From Clostridiales bacterium GWB2_37_7 (GTDB lineage: Bacteria > Bacillota > Clostridia > Lutisporales > Lutisporaceae), in assembly GCA_001797185.1 (NCBI GenBank), contig MGOS01000053.1, forward strand, positions 1-46,231: 46,231 bases of DNA, written 5' to 3'. Shown here in pieces: positions 25,820 to 41,996 of the stretch (position 1 is the stretch's first letter; the number at the start of each line of letters is the position of its first letter). The notes beneath the pieces were generated by a model that was given only the letters and a program-made list of their open reading frames with translations, searched no databases and was not told the DNA's origin. The position numbers were made by a program, and so were the translations under genes.

Positions 25820-28543
25820 ATGAAAGCAGTTGAACAGGTATACCAGGCTCTGCTTAAGCTAGAGCAGAAAATGAATAAAGGAGTCTCTGCCAATGAAATA
25901 AGCCAAGCAATAAACACAGATAGGGCTAATGTCAGCAGATATCTAAATCGCCTTTTTGATGAGAAGAGAGTGGAACGGTTAGAGGGAAGACCTGTATTGT
26001 TTTGCAGCAAAAAGCATAATCATCAAGCTATGCTTGTATTTGATGGCGAAAGCAGTCTTGATAAAGTAGCAGCGATACAATCCAGCCTCCAAGCACCTAT
26101 CCAGCAAGCAAAGGCAGCTATAATTTATCCTCCAAAAGGTCTGCACACTTTGTTATTGGGTGAGACTGGCGTAGGGAAGTCAATGTTCGCAGAATTGATG
26201 TATCAATTTGCAAAGGAGTCACTTACTGTTAAGGAGAACGCTCCGTTCATTCGTTTTAATTGTGCAGACTATGCAGAAAATCCTCAATTGCTTGTTTCAC
26301 AGATATTCGGAGTAAAAAAAGGTGCCTATACAGGAGCGGATAGAGATCGGGAAGGATTGATTGGGAAGGCTGACGGTGGATTCTTGTTTCTTGATGAGGT
26401 TCATAGGCTTTCGCCGCAAGGTCAGGAGATGCTTTTTACCTTTATTGATAAGGGAATATTTCGCCCTTTGGGTGAAACGGAAGAATCATATAGCTCAGAG
26501 GTCAGAATCATAGCAGCAACTACAGAACAACCACAATCATATCTATTAAATACCTTTACTCGCAGAATCCCTATGATAATAGAGCTTCCTTCCTTAAAAA
26601 ATAAGGATTTGACAGAACGATATCACCTTATAGAGCTTTTTATTAAGCAAGAGTCAAAGCGTATAGGCAAGAGTATAAATGCGGAAAAAAACGCGGTAAT
26701 CTCTTTTCTATTATATGATTGTCCCAACAATATAGGGCAGCTGAAAAGCGATATACAGCTAACTTGTGCCAAGTCCTTTATAAACTATAAAGCAAAAAAT
26801 GAAGACTCAATATTGATCACTTCTACAGATTTGCCTCAACATGTGCGCAAGGGCATGTTGATGATACATGAGCACCGAAACGATATTGAGTTTCTACTTA
26901 AAAGTAAAAGTCCAACAATTAAGTTTAGTGACCAACATGCAGAGAACTATGACACAATCACTGAATCAAAGATCAATGAGGATTTCTATGATATTATAGA
27001 ACACAAGCTGGAAACGCTAAAAAGCAGTGGTATGAAAAGTGAAGAAATAAGCTATGCCATTAATATGGGTATAGAAGCGCATTTCAAGAAATACTTGGGA
27101 GATATACCTGTTGTAATGCAAAGCAAGGATCTTAGAAACATAGTAGATCAAGAGATCCTGACAGTAGCAGAGAAAGTGTTGAAATTTGCAGAACAGAGCT
27201 TGGGAAGAGTATATGAAGAGAAAATACATATTGGCTTGGCTCTGCATTTACATGGTTTTGTAGAAAGAATAAAAAAGGGAGTAAAGATATATCATCCCAA
27301 GCTCAATATGATCAGAGTAGAATATCCGCAGGAATTTATGGCAGCCATGGAAGCCGCCAAAATACTTGATAGCAGCTTTGATATACATACACCTTTGGAT
27401 GAGATCGGATATATTGCCCTGTTCTTGTTTTCCAAGCCTTATGAGGTCTACAAACAAGAAAAAAGCATCGTAGGCGTGCTTGTGATGATGCATGGAAATT
27501 CAACAGCCGACAGCATGGTACAGTTATGTAATGCGATGATAGGAGTAAATCATGCCGTCGCTTTAGATATGCCCTTAGATATGAATCCAATGATTATGTA
27601 TGAATATGCCAAGGAAAAGGTAAGACAGATGGACATGGGAAGAGGGGTAATGCTGCTAGTGGATATGGGTTCTTTGACAAGCTTTGGGCAAATGCTGCAG
27701 GAGGAAACCGGAATAATAGTAAAAACAATAGATATGACAAGCACTGCCGTTGTTATTGATGTGTGCAGGAAGGCTGTGTTAGGCAGAGATATACATTATA
27801 TTTATGATAGTATAAAGCCTGCTAAAGCTTATCATTATGCAGAAAACACCCAGGAGAATAGCTATAAAAATAACATTATAATAACAGCCTGCTTTACGGG
27901 AGAAGGAGCATCTGAAAGACTAAAGTGTATTATTGAAGAGAGCTTAAAAACTGAAGCCATCAAAATAATACCTTTAAACATCATGAATAAAAAGGAATTT
28001 TTAGCCAAGATAGAGCAATGCAGAGAAGGGAATAAAATACTAGCAATAGTCAGCACTATAGACATTGATATGGAGGGTGTACCCTTTGTGTCGGCAGCAG
28101 AGATATTGACAGGAAATGGTCTTTGCAGAATAAGGGAGATCATTGATATCGAGAAAAATTATCTTAAGATCGCAAATTCCTTGAAAAGTCATATAAGGAT
28201 AGACAGCGAAGCTTTGGTAGAATGCCTTAGAGATACTTTGGCAGCATTTGAGAGCAGATTGGGTCTATATATAAAGGAAGAGGTCAAAATTGGTATTCTG
28301 CTGCACATGTGCTTCCTTCTTGACAAGTTAAAGAGCGGAGGTAAAGAGATCTTGTTTGAAGGGTTGCAGGATTTTAGGGAACTGTATACCAAAGAGCTTG
28401 CAATAGTAAGAGGCTGCATCAAGAGTATTGAATCAAAATATAAGGTGCAGATTGGAGAGCATGAGGAAGCATATATATGCAAGATGCTGCTGTCTAATGG
28501 AGATATGCTGCAAGAAATTGTTAAAAATAATAAGACTGTGTAG
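25820..28543 (+). CDS. LevR-type sigma-54-dependent activator with PRD and PTS EIIA/EIIB-like domains
   Basis: AAA+ domain: LLLGETGVGKS, GAYTGA (sigma-54 contact loop), GGFLFLDEVHRL; C-terminal PRD/PTS regions (GVLVMMHGNSTADSMVQL). Confidence 0.9.
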   Translation: MKAVEQVYQALLKLEQKMNKGVSANEISQAINTDRANVSRYLNRLFDEKRVERLEGRPVLFCSKKHNHQAMLVFDGESSLDKVAAIQSSLQAPIQQAKAAIIYPPKGLHTLLLGETGVGKSMFAELMYQFAKESLTVKENAPFIRFNCADYAENPQLLVSQIFGVKKGAYTGADRDREGLIGKADGGFLFLDEVHRLSPQGQEMLFTFIDKGIFRPLGETEESYSSEVRIIAATTEQPQSYLLNTFTRRIPMIIELPSLKNKDLTERYHLIELFIKQESKRIGKSINAEKNAVISFLLYDCPNNIGQLKSDIQLTCAKSFINYKAKNEDSILITSTDLPQHVRKGMLMIHEHRNDIEFLLKSKSPTIKFSDQHAENYDTITESKINEDFYDIIEHKLETLKSSGMKSEEISYAINMGIEAHFKKYLGDIPVVMQSKDLRNIVDQEILTVAEKVLKFAEQSLGRVYEEKIHIGLALHLHGFVERIKKGVKIYHPKLNMIRVEYPQEFMAAMEAAKILDSSFDIHTPLDEIGYIALFLFSKPYEVYKQEKSIVGVLVMMHGNSTADSMVQLCNAMIGVNHAVALDMPLDMNPMIMYEYAKEKVRQMDMGRGVMLLVDMGSLTSFGQMLQEETGIIVKTIDMTSTAVVIDVCRKAVLGRDIHYIYDSIKPAKAYHYAENTQENSYKNNIIITACFTGEGASERLKCIIEESLKTEAIKIIPLNIMNKKEFLAKIEQCREGNKILAIVSTIDIDMEGVPFVSAAEILTGNGLCRIREIIDIEKNYLKIANSLKSHIRIDSEALVECLRDTLAAFESRLGLYIKEEVKIGILLHMCFLLDKLKSGGKEILFEGLQDFRELYTKELAIVRGCIKSIESKYKVQIGEHEEAYICKMLLSNGDMLQEIVKNNKTV

Positions 28544-28691: not shown

Positions 28692-28707
28692 TGGCATTAT
28701 ATTTGCT
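28692..28707 (+). promoter_or_regulatory. Sigma-54 (-24/-12) promoter for the PTS operon
   Basis: TGGCAT-TATAT-TTGCT, matches TGGCAY-N5-TTGCW; ~43 bp upstream of the HPr ATG and directly downstream of a sigma-54 activator gene. Confidence 0.85.
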
Positions 28708-35748: not shown

Positions 35749-35818
35749 TGTTCCGATATGTAACGTTGTTCCGTTGTGGAACATGTGATATTGCACAATC
35801 GTGTTCCATGATGGAACG
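35749..35818 (+). promoter_or_regulatory. Array of three enhancer-like inverted repeats (TGTTCC-N5-GGAACA type)
   Basis: TGTTCC-GATAT-GTAACG (35749-35765), TGTTCC-GTTGT-GGAACA (35767-35783), TGTTCC-ATGAT-GGAACG (35802-35818). Confidence 0.8.
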
Positions 35819-35910
35819 TTTTGTAATTAAATATATAACAAAATAAAGTTCATTTCATTAAAACGTTGTTTTATCATGCTTCTACGTATAAATGACGCCT
35901 CATAAATAGT

Positions 35911-35926
35911 TGGCACAGAAATTGCA
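35911..35926 (+). promoter_or_regulatory. Sigma-54 (-24/-12) promoter for the AOR gene
   Basis: TGGCAC-AGAAA-TTGCA, exact consensus; 50 bp before the AOR ATG. Confidence 0.92.
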
Positions 35927-35975
35927 ATATAAAATTGTAGAAAGATTTAGACAAAATCATTTGGGAGGTAATGTA

Positions 35976-37715
35976 ATGAACAAATTTATAAGAGTGGACA
36001 TGACAACATTGAACGTTACTACTGATGAAGTACCTGTTAAATATGTAGGACTGGGAGGGCGTGCACTTACTTCCAACTTTGTTGCTGACGAAGTCAAGCC
36101 TACTTGCCATGCTTTAGGCAAAAACAACAAAATAATTTTTGCCCCTGGTTTACTTAGTGGCACTACAGCTCCTAATTCAGGACGTATTTCAGTCGGAGCC
36201 AAGAGCCCGCTGACCGGTACAATCAAAGAAAGCAACTCTGGTGGTTCTTTTTCACAAAAGATGGCTAAACTGGGCATTAAAGCTTTAGTTATTGAAGGAA
36301 TGCCAGCCGGTGATAAGTTCTATATTGTTAAAATTGATATAAACGGTGTAACGATTGAAGAAGCCCCAGCTGAGATTCTTGGAGGCTGTGGAAACTACAA
36401 GGCTATTGAAGTGTTAAGCGCAAAATACGGCCAAAAAGTCGGTATCGCGCTAGCTGGCCCTGCAGGTGAAAATCGTCTGCCTTCTGCTAATATTTCTTTC
36501 AAAGATCCAGACGGTAATATCCGTAGTGCCGGTCGCGGTGGTTTAGGTGCAGTATTGGGTTCCAAGAAGGTAAAAGCCCTCGTTATTGACGAAACAGGAG
36601 CCGGTGCTGTTCCTATTGCAGATCCTGAAAAATTTAAAGCAGCCGCTAAAGTATTCGCTAAAGCACTTCTGGATCACCCGGTCTCGGGTCAAGGATTGGC
36701 AGCGTATGGTACTGATGTATTGGTTAATATCTTGAATGAAGCTGGCGGTCTACCAGCCAATAACTTCACAGCCGGTCGTATAGAGCATAATGACTGTATC
36801 TCCGGTGAAACTTTGAATGCCACCATTACAGAACGTGGTGGTGATGGTAAAGTATCTCATGGATGCCATCCCGGTTGTGTCATCAGATGTTCGCAGTGGT
36901 ATCCTGACAAGCAAGGAAAATACATCACTAGTGGTTTTGAGTATGAGACTATCTGGGGCCTTGGAGCTGATGCAGGTATCAAGGATTTAGATGACATTGC
37001 ATACATCGACCGTGCAATGGACGACTTAGGTATAGATAGTATAGAAACTGCTGTTGCTATCGCTACTGCAATGGAAGGCGGCCTGCTGCCTTGGGGTGAC
37101 GGTAAAGCCGTGTTGGAGGCGGTTAATCAAATTTACGAGCCTACGCCATTAGGACGAATTCTTGCTAGTGGTACATCTGTTGTAGGTAAGGTTTGTGGTC
37201 TGTTCAGAGTTCCAGTAGTAAAAGATCAAGGTATCCCTGCTTACGACCCGCGCCCAGTCAAGGGTATCGGACTGACTTATGCTACTACCCCAATGGGCGC
37301 TGACCATACTGCAGGATACTGTATCTCCGGTAACATATTAAAGGTAGGCGCTAATATAGATCCACTTAAGAAAGACGGCCAAATCGAATATGCCCGTGCT
37401 ATGCAAATCGGAACAGCTGCTGTTGACAGTACCGGTATGTGTCTATTCGTTTACTTCGGCATAGCTGACAATCCTGGTGGATACCAAGCTCTGATCGACA
37501 TGATCAATGCACAATACGGTATAGCTTTGACTGCTGTCGATGTTGACAAACTGGGTGAATCCGTTCTTAAGGTTGAGCGTGCTTTCAACAAAGCAGCCGG
37601 TTTCACTAACGCACACGATCGTCTGCCTGAATTCTTCGAATATGAGCCATGTCCTCCGCACAATGTGGTTTGGGACTTTACTCCTGAAGAAATCGACGAA
37701 GTTTACAATTTTTAA
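35976..37715 (+). CDS. Aldehyde ferredoxin oxidoreductase family tungsten (or molybdenum) pterin enzyme, 579 aa
   Basis: GGRALTSNFVADEV, SGRISVGAKSPLTGTIKESNSGG, RSAGRGGLGAVLGSKKVKA, CHPGCVIRC Fe-S ligand cluster, DSTGMCLF; ATG at 35976 with GGGAGGT RBS. The track start at 35910 lies inside the sigma-54 promoter. Confidence 0.92.
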   Translation: MNKFIRVDMTTLNVTTDEVPVKYVGLGGRALTSNFVADEVKPTCHALGKNNKIIFAPGLLSGTTAPNSGRISVGAKSPLTGTIKESNSGGSFSQKMAKLGIKALVIEGMPAGDKFYIVKIDINGVTIEEAPAEILGGCGNYKAIEVLSAKYGQKVGIALAGPAGENRLPSANISFKDPDGNIRSAGRGGLGAVLGSKKVKALVIDETGAGAVPIADPEKFKAAAKVFAKALLDHPVSGQGLAAYGTDVLVNILNEAGGLPANNFTAGRIEHNDCISGETLNATITERGGDGKVSHGCHPGCVIRCSQWYPDKQGKYITSGFEYETIWGLGADAGIKDLDDIAYIDRAMDDLGIDSIETAVAIATAMEGGLLPWGDGKAVLEAVNQIYEPTPLGRILASGTSVVGKVCGLFRVPVVKDQGIPAYDPRPVKGIGLTYATTPMGADHTAGYCISGNILKVGANIDPLKKDGQIEYARAMQIGTAAVDSTGMCLFVYFGIADNPGGYQALIDMINAQYGIALTAVDVDKLGESVLKVERAFNKAAGFTNAHDRLPEFFEYEPCPPHNVVWDFTPEEIDEVYNF

Positions 37716-37771: not shown

Positions 37772-37801
37772 AGCCGGACCTAGGTCCGGCTCCAAATTTT
37801 T
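37772..37801 (+). terminator. Intra-operon (probably partial) terminator after AOR
   Basis: Perfect 20-nt palindrome AGCCGGACCTAGGTCCGGCT followed by CCAAATTTTTC. Confidence 0.75.
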
Positions 37802-37873: not shown

Positions 37874-38203
37874 ATGTCGGAACAAAGCAGAAAAACGATT
37901 GAGGTCAGAGGCTTTCTTCATTTGGATGCTGTTTTTCGAAAAAAAGGCACCATCCCTTTAATCATGGGGCTTGAGGACCCAATTACAGGTATTGAACTGG
38001 CAGCGAAACTGGAGATTACTTTGGATGAAATTGAAGTCATTTTTGTAAACGGTTTTGTCCAGGAATTAGATTATATGATTTATCCGGGCGATCGGATAGC
38101 TTTTCTACCGCCAGGCTGTCCCGGACCATATCGGATAGCTTTGGGATTTTATGGAAAAAACAAGAGTAACGAATCAAACTTTAAAATAAAGAAAAAGGAG
38201 TAG
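37874..38203 (+). CDS. MoaD/ThiS-like beta-grasp protein with a C-terminal extension and no terminal GG
   Basis: IEVIFVNGFVQELDYMIYPGDRIAFLPPGCPGPYR resembles the MoaD C-terminal fold, but ends ...FYGKNKSNESNFKIKKKE. Confidence 0.65.
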   Translation: MSEQSRKTIEVRGFLHLDAVFRKKGTIPLIMGLEDPITGIELAAKLEITLDEIEVIFVNGFVQELDYMIYPGDRIAFLPPGCPGPYRIALGFYGKNKSNESNFKIKKKE

Positions 38204-38232: not shown

Positions 38233-39432
38233 ATGAAAAAAGAGCTTAAGACCTTGGGAACTGAGCTTTTTGTAGTGGGTGAAAGGGTTCGGATTTCCAA
38301 GGATGGTTATATGAAGCTGCCTATACCCATGGAAGAGGAACAAGAAGCAATATTTATTTCCACAGAGGGTGGTTACCGGTTAATCCCGCTGCTGCCGGAT
38401 GCAAAAAGGATATATATCGAAGTCACCACAGAATGTAATTTTGCATGTATAACCTGTATTCGCAGTTCCTGGCATGATAGACTGCTGCACATGGAGTGGG
38501 AGACTTTTGAAAAGATACTGGAAAGTCTTAAAGAACTGCCGGAACTGGAGTCGGTACATTTTGGTGGTTTCGGTGAGCCCATGATGCATCCAAGGATTTT
38601 TGATATGCTGCGGGCAGTGAAGAAACTTGGACTCAAGGCAGAAATGATTACCAATGGTTCGTATTTAAATAAGGAAAATATTCAAAAATTGATTGATCTG
38701 GAATTGGATGTTCTCTTTACTTCCTTGGACAGTCCTGAGGAAGAGGAATATAATGAAATACGTCAAGGCGCCAATTTTCAAAGCGTTTCTCAAAGTATTG
38801 CAAATTTGCAGGCTATGAAACAGGAACGAAAGACCAGAAAGCCGGAACTAGGGATTGAGTTTGTAGCCATGAAAAAGAATTATGCCAGACTGCCGAAGCT
38901 GATCCAAATGGCTTATGATCTCAAAGCCAGTCAGATCATCATAAGCAATCTGCTGCCTTACCACGAATCCATGAAGGATGAAATTGTTTATGATATAGAT
39001 GATACAGGTTGCATGTTTGGAAAAGATTCTTTGAAGACCACTGTTTGGGCTCAGATGTCCAATATGAAGTTAAGGACGGAACGCAGCTGTAAGTTTGCGA
39101 AGGATAAATCCTTATGCATCAACTACCAGGGTAACGTCAGTCCCTGCTATGCCTTGATGCATTCCTACGAGTGCTATATCTATGGAAGAAAAAAGCAAAT
39201 GTACCCCTGCTATATGGGCAATGTCAATGAAAAGAAACTTCAGGAGATTTGGATGGATCCTGGGTATGTCAACTTCAGGCGGGCTGTCAATGAAAACCTT
39301 TTCCCTTCCTGTACGGACTGCAAATCCAGGGATGGATGCAGCTATACCGATAGCAATGAAATGGATTGCTGGGGCAACAGTCCCTCCTGTGGAGAGTGTC
39401 TCTGGGCTAGAAGGATAATCGCTTGCCCATAG
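38233..39432 (+). CDS. Radical SAM/SPASM protein, tungsten-oxidoreductase maturase type
   Basis: VTTECNFACITCIRSSW (CX3CX2C) plus Cys-rich C-terminal SPASM region; located directly in the AOR cluster. Confidence 0.85.
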   Translation: MKKELKTLGTELFVVGERVRISKDGYMKLPIPMEEEQEAIFISTEGGYRLIPLLPDAKRIYIEVTTECNFACITCIRSSWHDRLLHMEWETFEKILESLKELPELESVHFGGFGEPMMHPRIFDMLRAVKKLGLKAEMITNGSYLNKENIQKLIDLELDVLFTSLDSPEEEEYNEIRQGANFQSVSQSIANLQAMKQERKTRKPELGIEFVAMKKNYARLPKLIQMAYDLKASQIIISNLLPYHESMKDEIVYDIDDTGCMFGKDSLKTTVWAQMSNMKLRTERSCKFAKDKSLCINYQGNVSPCYALMHSYECYIYGRKKQMYPCYMGNVNEKKLQEIWMDPGYVNFRRAVNENLFPSCTDCKSRDGCSYTDSNEMDCWGNSPSCGECLWARRIIACP

Positions 39433-39480: not shown

Positions 39481-39705
39481 GTGCAGATAAAAGTAAAGCT
39501 CTTTGCGACACTTAGAGAAAATCGTGAGAAAGAGATGATGATGGATCTAGTACAGGGAGCGACTCCGAAGGATATCATTGAACGCCTAAATATTCGGGCA
39601 GAGGAAGCAGCAATAATAATGATCAACGGAAGAGGTGCGAATTCTGATCAGGTTTTGGAGGATAATGATACGGTGTCTATTTTCCCGCCTGTAGGAGGCG
39701 GCTAA
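39481..39705 (+). CDS. MoaD/ThiS sulfur-carrier protein with C-terminal GGG
   Basis: KVKLFATLRENREKEMMM...VFPPVGGG-type tail: IFPPVGGG*. Confidence 0.88.
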   Translation: MQIKVKLFATLRENREKEMMMDLVQGATPKDIIERLNIRAEEAAIIMINGRGANSDQVLEDNDTVSIFPPVGGG

Positions 39706-39950: not shown

Positions 39951-39966
39951 AGCAACATCTGTGCCA
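39951..39966 (-). promoter_or_regulatory. Orphan sigma-54 (-24/-12) promoter, minus strand
   Basis: Minus-strand TGGCAC-AGATG-TTGCT (plus strand AGCAA-CATCT-GTGCCA); exact consensus. Confidence 0.75.
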
Positions 39967-40088
39967 AATCATAAAAAATTAGGGGGTTTTATAATCGTTG
40001 AGTTACTGAGTTACATCAGAAGCATAAAAGCAATCGGTCCTGCCAAATCAAGAACGCTCTATTTTGGAGCAATTAAGTCTCATTACAG

Positions 40089-41996
40089 TTATTCTATTTC
40101 GGAACGACGTTCTGTATCGTGACAATGGATATCGTATTTTTCAAGTTTTCGATAAAGTGTATTTCTACCAACTCCTAAAATTTTAGCTGCAGCTGTAACA
40201 TTGCCATGAGATTCATTTAAAACGGTGATAATATGCTGTTTTTCCACTTGCTCCAAGCTCAAATTAATGCTTTGCTTATTAGTGTGATTTAAATTAACTT
40301 TTTTGCCAAGGAAGTTTGGTTGAACAGATTCTGTGTTGACAATTAATTCGATAACATTTTCCAATTCTCTGATATTGCCCTGCCATTCATGTTTTTTCAG
40401 AAAGTCCAAGTATTCCGGTGATATAGCTACTCTTCTTTTGTTCAACCTTTTGGAGGTTTTTTCCATGTAGTAGTCAAAAAGCAAAGGTATATCATCTGCC
40501 CGTTCTCTTAGTGGTGGTAGATATATAGGAAGTACATTTAATCTATAGTAAAGATCTTTCCTGAAATTACCTGCTGCTACTTCTTTCTTTAAATTCTTGT
40601 TGGTAGCGGCAATAATTCTGACGTTGACAGGGATCTGTCTGTGACTTCCTATTCTGGTTATTACACCTTCCTCGATTACTCTAAGAAGCTTGATTTGCAT
40701 ATCTATTGGCATTTCTCCGATTTCATCCAAGAAAATTGTACCTTCATCGGCAAGTTCAAATTTGCCTGCATTGCCGCCTCGTTTTGCACCGGTAAAGGCG
40801 CCTTCCTCGTAGCCAAATAGTTCAGACTCAATGAGTGTTCTGGGTATTGCCCCGCAATTTACCGCAATAAAAGGCTCTTCCTTTCGAATGCTGTAATTGT
40901 GAATAGATTGCGCAAAAACCTCTTTACCCGTTCCACTTTCTCCAGTAATTAAAATTGTAGAACTGCTATCGGCAATTTTTTTTGCGTACTCAATAGTTCT
41001 TAAGAATTCTTCGTTTTTTCCTATGATTTTATCAAAGGTATAAATAGCTTGACCGCTCAGTATCTTACCTGCAAGCTTTCTGCTTTTTTTAAGCTCATAG
41101 AATATGTGAATGATCTCGATAATTTCTTTGTCGGAATTGAATATGGGGGAGGCAGTAAGAGTAAACTGAATCTTATTTGCTCGTGCCTTTACGTTTACAT
41201 CCTTGTCTACATAGCTTTCTCTTGCTGTAAGCTTGACAACAACCTCATTCCAGCCTTCGATCAAATTCCATACCTTCATGTTCTTGATTTCATATTCACT
41301 ATAGCCAAACATTTTAACAATCTGCTTGTTCATAGAAGTGATGTTGCCTGATAAATCCGAGGTCAAAATACCTGAGGATACTGAATCAAATATGCTTTCT
41401 ATATGTTTTTTTGATATCGTCAATATTGAATTTATATCATTTACCTCTAACATACGTTCAATTGCATTTGCTGCTGCCACTACCATTCCCAAGGTATGGG
41501 GATGAACGTTTTCGCTGTATCCTGTTAAATCGATAATTCCGATTATTTTACCATTGGCATCCTTTATTGGTGCAGCCGAGCAGGTCCACTTGTGGTAAGC
41601 CTTGATAAAATGCTCCGCGCCTGATACTTGAACAGGCTGACCTTCACTTATAACCATGCTCATGGCATTGGTACCAATACTATCTTCATCCATATATGCG
41701 CCAGGTATCATTTTGAGCCTGTTTGCCTCTGATAGTATTTTTTCATCACCTGTGACGCTGAGGATACAGCCTTCGGCATCATTTAGTATGACAAAAAAAT
41801 CCGAGCCCCTGACAAAATCGTATAGATGCTCCAAAAAAGGAGCTGCTGTCTTTATAAGTTCTTTGTTTTGTTCAAGTTTTTGTATTAAAGTCTTGCCTTC
41901 TAATACCCTCGTGCTAAATATATTCTCCGGCTTGACTCCTTTGGTAATACACCTTACATGGGACGCTTCGATGCACTTGTTCATTTTATTCACCAT
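40089..41996 (-). CDS. AcoR-type sigma-54-dependent transcriptional activator (GAF-PAS-AAA+-HTH_8)
   Basis: ILITGESGTGKEVFAQSIH, GYEEGAFTGAKRGG, GTIFLDEIGEMP, C-terminal HGNVTAAAKILGVGRNTLYRKLEKY. Confidence 0.93.
   Translation of the reverse strand: MVNKMNKCIEASHVRCITKGVKPENIFSTRVLEGKTLIQKLEQNKELIKTAAPFLEHLYDFVRGSDFFVILNDAEGCILSVTGDEKILSEANRLKMIPGAYMDEDSIGTNAMSMVISEGQPVQVSGAEHFIKAYHKWTCSAAPIKDANGKIIGIIDLTGYSENVHPHTLGMVVAAANAIERMLEVNDINSILTISKKHIESIFDSVSSGILTSDLSGNITSMNKQIVKMFGYSEYEIKNMKVWNLIEGWNEVVVKLTARESYVDKDVNVKARANKIQFTLTASPIFNSDKEIIEIIHIFYELKKSRKLAGKILSGQAIYTFDKIIGKNEEFLRTIEYAKKIADSSSTILITGESGTGKEVFAQSIHNYSIRKEEPFIAVNCGAIPRTLIESELFGYEEGAFTGAKRGGNAGKFELADEGTIFLDEIGEMPIDMQIKLLRVIEEGVITRIGSHRQIPVNVRIIAATNKNLKKEVAAGNFRKDLYYRLNVLPIYLPPLRERADDIPLLFDYYMEKTSKRLNKRRVAISPEYLDFLKKHEWQGNIRELENVIELIVNTESVQPNFLGKKVNLNHTNKQSINLSLEQVEKQHIITVLNESHGNVTAAAKILGVGRNTLYRKLEKYDIHCHDTERRSEIE

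Follow-up and report, generated by a model that had tools for sequence, protein, structure and literature searches.

Enhancer-binding proteins of the class discussed here sit as dimers on sites upstream of a promoter and use a ring of AAA+ domains to remodel the sigma-54 form of RNA polymerase. One such activator, AorR, was predicted together with sigma-54 to act on aor-moaD through TGT-N10-12-ACA sites in Clostridium and Geosporobacter (Nie, Dong and Yang 2019; PMC6615313). The action of AorR on aor is a prediction in that paper, and the sigma-54 gel shifts described in its main text took in no aor promoter; a literature search found no paper with experimental work on AorR. AcoR is listed in the main text of the same source among the groups with a distinct site motif. 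Both AcoR and DhaR share the GAF-PAS-AAA+-Fis layout of AorR but have different targets. At norVW of Escherichia coli, NorR needs its three enhancer sites, which serve as a scaffold for its oligomer (PMC2941729). NorR resembles AorR in being a GAF-containing sigma-54 activator and in having three enhancer sites ahead of a single promoter; it differs in sensing nitric oxide and in acting on another target, and the part played by three sites in the case of AorR is a proposal made by analogy.

The window analysed here is a stretch of 46,231 nucleotides from Clostridiales bacterium GWB2_37_7 (contig MGOS01000053.1). Like the AorR regulon as described in the main text of PMC6615313, it holds a sigma-54 activator, a -24/-12 promoter, multiple sites of the TGT-N10-12-ACA type and an aor-moaD target. 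The target lies by the activator gene, here in convergent orientation, with TGT-N11-ACA sites upstream of aor and the -24/-12 element between these sites and aor. The window differs from that description in its AOR subfamily, a radical SAM maturase gene, the convergent activator and a relic control region. The pairing of activator and AOR is already predicted in related bacteria, and the window adds a further case. The main text of PMC6615313 states neither a spacing rule nor a target replacement, so that the array spacing and the evidence for target replacement are new relative to it. Our reading is that positions 35749-35926 form the enhancer and promoter of the AOR operon and are worked by AorR, whose classic target was replaced and left a relic. 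Drawn from motifs, their spacing, co-occurrence with AorR, synteny and the relic, all of them features of the DNA itself, this reading is given a probability of about 0.86.

The AOR operon and its control region

The operon lies on the plus strand. Its first gene (35976-37715) encodes an aldehyde:ferredoxin oxidoreductase (AOR) of 579 amino acids with the Pfam domains AFOR_N and AFOR_C, and its best solved relatives are AORs, among them the Pyrococcus furiosus enzyme (1aor). Two AOR subfamilies are distinguished here under labels coined in this analysis, type A and classic, which share ∼35% identity. Type A carries CxxxCxxxC as cluster ligands and MGADHTAGY in the active-site stretch, as opposed to CxxCxxxC and RGGCHVRGY in classic AORs, while the last cysteine (DSxGxC) is retained. 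Assignment to the classic, 1aor type was rejected for the window's enzyme because CxxCxxxC is changed to CxxxCxxxC and RGGCH to MGADH. The type-A signatures CxxxCxxxC and MGADH are common to the AORs of genomes G010, G017 and G003 and to remoter AORs.

Downstream of AOR are a small MoaD/ThiS-like protein of 109 amino acids (37874-38203) that is kept in type-A operons, a tungsten cofactor oxidoreductase radical SAM maturase (38233-39432; TIGR04317, 421 bits against a cut-off of 380) and a second MoaD-like protein of 74 amino acids with a GGG end (39481-39705). The first MoaD-like protein has no Pfam or NCBIfam match and carries PPGCPGPYR at the position of MoaD's GG end. The AFOR domains and the adjoining dedicated maturase are those of a tungsten AOR system, and the enzyme is probably tungsten-dependent, a metal assigned from its family. 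Between AOR and the first MoaD-like gene lies a perfect 10-bp inverted repeat (37772-37791, plus strand; AGCCGGACCT/AGGTCCGGCT) followed by a short T run, which could be a leaky terminator holding the maturation genes below the level of AOR.

Upstream of AOR, three predicted AorR sites precede a sigma-54 promoter on the plus strand. The distal site, UAS1 (TGTTCCGATATGTAACG, 35749-35765), matches the consensus dyad TGTTCC-N5-GGAACA, itself a TGT-N11-ACA sequence, at 10 of 12 arm bases with two mismatches; the middle site, UAS2 (TGTTCCGTTGTGGAACA, 35767-35783), starts 18 bp past the UAS1 start and matches at all 12; the proximal site, UAS3 (TGTTCCATGATGGAACG, 35802-35818), starts 35 bp past the UAS2 start and matches at 11, with its mismatch in the right arm. 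The promoter (TGGCACAGAAATTGCA, 35911-35926) is a perfect -24/-12 consensus that starts 109 bp past the UAS3 start, with 49 bases between it and the AOR ATG at 35976. The three dyads thus start 109-162 bp upstream of the -24 element, and the outer sites are 53 bp apart, ∼five helical turns. The first-pass annotation had reported one perfect, one singly mismatched and one degenerate copy of this dyad, an exact -24/-12 box ahead of the AOR start codon and a convergent activator with GAF, PAS and AAA+ domains and a GAFTGA loop at 40089-41996; the motif positions were recovered as described, and the activator by domain search and sequence.

On a motif derived from the window itself, the array scores 33 out of 36 (arm matches summed over three dyads at a spacing of 18 + 35). 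Single dyads are not commoner than chance, as 10 with up to three mismatches occur in the whole window against 14.7 expected. In 10 Mb of sequence simulated by a first-order Markov process with the dinucleotide make-up of the window, dyads matching at 11 or more of 12 positions arose 15 times and 12/12 dyads never; arrays spaced 18 + 34/35 reached a score of 25 or more once and of 26 or more not at all. Set against the score of 33, the simulation marks the cluster, not the single dyads, as the exceptional feature. A chance origin of the cluster in AT-rich intergenic sequence would account for single weak dyads, which are common by chance, but it fails on the simulated arrays and is refuted by the recurrence of the arrangement at most AorR-linked loci (below), leaving it a negligible probability.

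Elsewhere in the organism's own genome, a pattern search returned two more 11/12 dyads (C6:15526 and C127:494), both single and without an array; one of them has a 10/11 promoter-like match close by. The idea of a riboswitch in the leader of AOR was rejected, as Rfam gave no match anywhere in the window. A further sigma-54-like promoter (TGGCATTATATTTGCT, 28692-28707, plus strand) is flanked by the gene of a LevR/DagR-type PRD activator (25820-28543) and by a PTS operon and is probably part of another sigma-54 system in the window.

AorR and the AOR genes linked to it

The convergent activator (40089-41996, minus strand) is a protein of 635 amino acids with the order GAF, PAS, sigma-54 AAA+ domain with GAFTGA, and Fis-type helix-turn-helix (HTH), as expected of the AorR regulon. 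Matches found with it include proteins of C. ljungdahlii, C. ragsdalei and two Geosporobacter species, and its 52-64% identity to the C. ljungdahlii, C. ragsdalei and Geosporobacter proteins identifies it as an AorR orthologue. The orthologues of C. ljungdahlii and C. ragsdalei adjoin aor, and AorR orthologues mostly adjoin an AOR gene across Clostridia and Spirochaetota metagenome-assembled genomes. The description of the activator as AcoR-type holds for the domain layout and not for the identity, which by locus and motif is AorR. DhaR, the best NCBIfam match (NF008485), was rejected at 437 bits, below the cut-off of 551; AcoR or DhaR identity was also rejected on the target, which is AOR and not an acetoin or dihydroxyacetone operon. 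The homologues L152-L154, L156, L158 and L160-L162 are 51-53% identical to AorR and have no AOR or array nearby; they are possibly a sister group with a different target.

The distribution of the array was compared between 34 AOR genes linked to AorR, whether as neighbours or in trans within one genome, and 16 without a linked AorR. A -24/-12 element scoring at least 10/11 precedes all 34 linked genes and none of the 16 unlinked ones, the latter being mostly of other AOR subclades, with only L053 a moderately close type-A AOR (59% identical). When spacing was left free over 360 combinations and the best three-site array was taken, this array fell at 18 + 33-35 bp in 29/34 linked and 0/16 unlinked genes; the linked loci are mutually related, and significance values overstate their independence. 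The spacing fails in the five others, mainly Clostridium species including C. ljungdahlii and C. ragsdalei. A separate count of pairwise dyad distances in the first set of loci peaks at 18, 34-35 and 52-53. Conservation of the repeats at orthologous loci had been named beforehand as a check on the first-pass annotation, and these counts bear it out; together with the near-invariant recognition helix described next, they support the pairing of activator, array and AOR.

A single RpoN is encoded in the genome, with several further sigma-54 activators, and fifteen groups of enhancer-binding proteins share TGT-N10-12-ACA motifs in the main text of Nie et al. (PMC6615313). Both observations leave room for a real array and promoter worked by another of these activators, with AorR a mere neighbour. 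The recognition helix RNTLYRK, near-invariant among AorR orthologues, is absent from the other sigma-54 activators of this genome, whose HTHs are at most 46% identical. The arrays track AorR genomes even where AorR is not adjacent, and AorR homologues without a linked AOR have no array plus promoter nearby, except for a relic-like site at the aorR locus of genome G193. Control by another activator is accordingly rated very improbable, and AorR is retained as the predicted regulator.

Cases in which AOR and aorR are far apart bear on the same point. In Geosporobacter ferrireducens, the type-A AOR is ∼330 kb from aorR and still has array and promoter; its aorR (L078, 7944-10623) has no adjoining AOR and is directly followed by a ThiF/HesA-like gene. 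The type-A AOR of G193 lies ∼260 kb from the aorR orthologue and likewise retains both elements, with a second AorR-like gene ∼70 kb from AOR, which gives two candidate activators there. G. subterraneus also has array and promoter at its type-A AOR, with no activator in the 14 kb read around the gene. As judged from these loci, the sites go with the AOR gene and not merely with the neighborhood.

Evidence for target replacement, and the relic behind aorR

A second, decayed enhancer array occupies the minus strand at 40055-40124, overlapping the 3′ end of aorR. Its sites start at 40124, 40106 and 40071, keep the 18 + 35 spacing and match at 8, 9 and 8 of 12 positions. It is followed by an orphan sigma-54 promoter (TGGCACAGATGTTGCT, 39951-39966, minus strand) with an exact -24/-12; neither the decayed array nor this promoter figured in the first-pass annotation. 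In a genome of the same genus, G004 (L065), the AOR promoter behind aorR has the identical sequence. There, the genes behind aorR encode a classic AOR, a MoaD protein and a ThiF-like protein, and the array overlaps the end of aorR. G004 and the window have the same flanks, an ABC transporter on one side and nagB plus nagA on the other. The window lacks the classic AOR and has instead a type-A operon that faces the other way, its own array standing beside nagB. The relic aligns with the G004 control region, and homology ends just past the -12 element. Genome G002 has the same new operon and has lost the relic. This assembly alone shows the junction of nagB, array and AOR; the G002 contig of the same arrangement breaks off inside AOR. 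The trees also disagree: the window's AorR groups with those of G002, G004 and G008, and its AOR with those of G010 and G017.

The perfect -24/-12 of the relic, the kept spacing and an array score of 25, level with the weakest arrays at AOR promoters (25-26), would fit a living element. On that view both promoters would answer to AorR, and a short transcript from the second would run towards the 3′ end of the AOR operon, to which it would be antisense. Each relic site is nonetheless down three to four consensus bases, homology stops right past the -12 element, no gene follows the promoter on the minus strand, and G002 dispensed with the region while keeping the operon; a functional second promoter is considered unlikely. 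Taken as a relic, the region joins the G004 synteny, the alignment of the relic, its array and the conflict between AorR and AOR trees in supporting target replacement. Comparison of these sequences is evidence that the activator's target enzyme was replaced by an AOR of a different subfamily, the old switch surviving as a decaying remnant. Recent copying of the window's active array from the relic is unsupported, their 66% identity falling within the 57-75% of other control regions.

The window's AOR shares 91% identity with its Geosporobacter counterpart against 74% for RpoB, and 88% with that of G193 against 79% for RpoB. The excess of AOR over RpoB identity suggests that the type-A operon was acquired by transfer, the presumed direction being into this lineage. 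In G193, the aorR locus (L138, 7699-8333) keeps array and promoter while the AOR gene is missing and MoaD and ThiF-like genes alone follow. The array at its type-A operon is 78% identical to the one behind aorR, with spacer sequence in common, and both copies stand 77 bp from the promoter, as against 107-110 bp at other type-A promoters. On this identity, shared spacer and distance, the type-A control region of G193 was likely copied from the native aorR locus.

Proposed mechanism and significance

We infer AorR binding, ring assembly and effector sensing as follows. Dimers of AorR would occupy the three dyads, whose fixed spacing of 18 + 35 bp would probably make the array a scaffold for the AAA+ ring; the analogy with NorR suggests that a fixed array scaffolds the AorR oligomer. 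The N-terminal GAF/PAS part would sense a signal, and the ring would loop onto sigma-54 RNA polymerase at the -24/-12 element, where the GAFTGA loops would remodel the closed complex using ATP. AOR would then be made along with the cofactor-maturation genes for the MoaD-like protein, the radical SAM maturase and MoaD.

In the ancestral state, AorR would have lain just upstream of a classic AOR, with the array overlapping the end of aorR. This lineage would have lost the classic AOR and gained, at the same locus, a type-A operon that faces the other way and carries its own array. AorR would now act on that operon from its opposite side, and the relic would be what is left of the earlier array and promoter. 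In a broader proposal, to which we give even chances, AorR and its array (18 + 33-35 bp) form a portable regulatory code: the type-A operon would have moved between clostridial families and, in three or more lineages (this genus, Geosporobacter and G193 among them), supplanted the classic AOR next to aorR, remaining under AorR control through an array that was its own or, in G193, seemingly recopied.

In gas-fermenting clostridia, AOR converts acid to aldehyde on the route to ethanol. The predicted regulator, its sites and their strict spacing are mapped finely enough for direct mutation. The locus presents an activator that appears to have retained its DNA code through the exchange of its target enzyme for one of a different subfamily, with the old enhancer and promoter still readable, and it would let one test how enhancer spacing limits regulatory rewiring.
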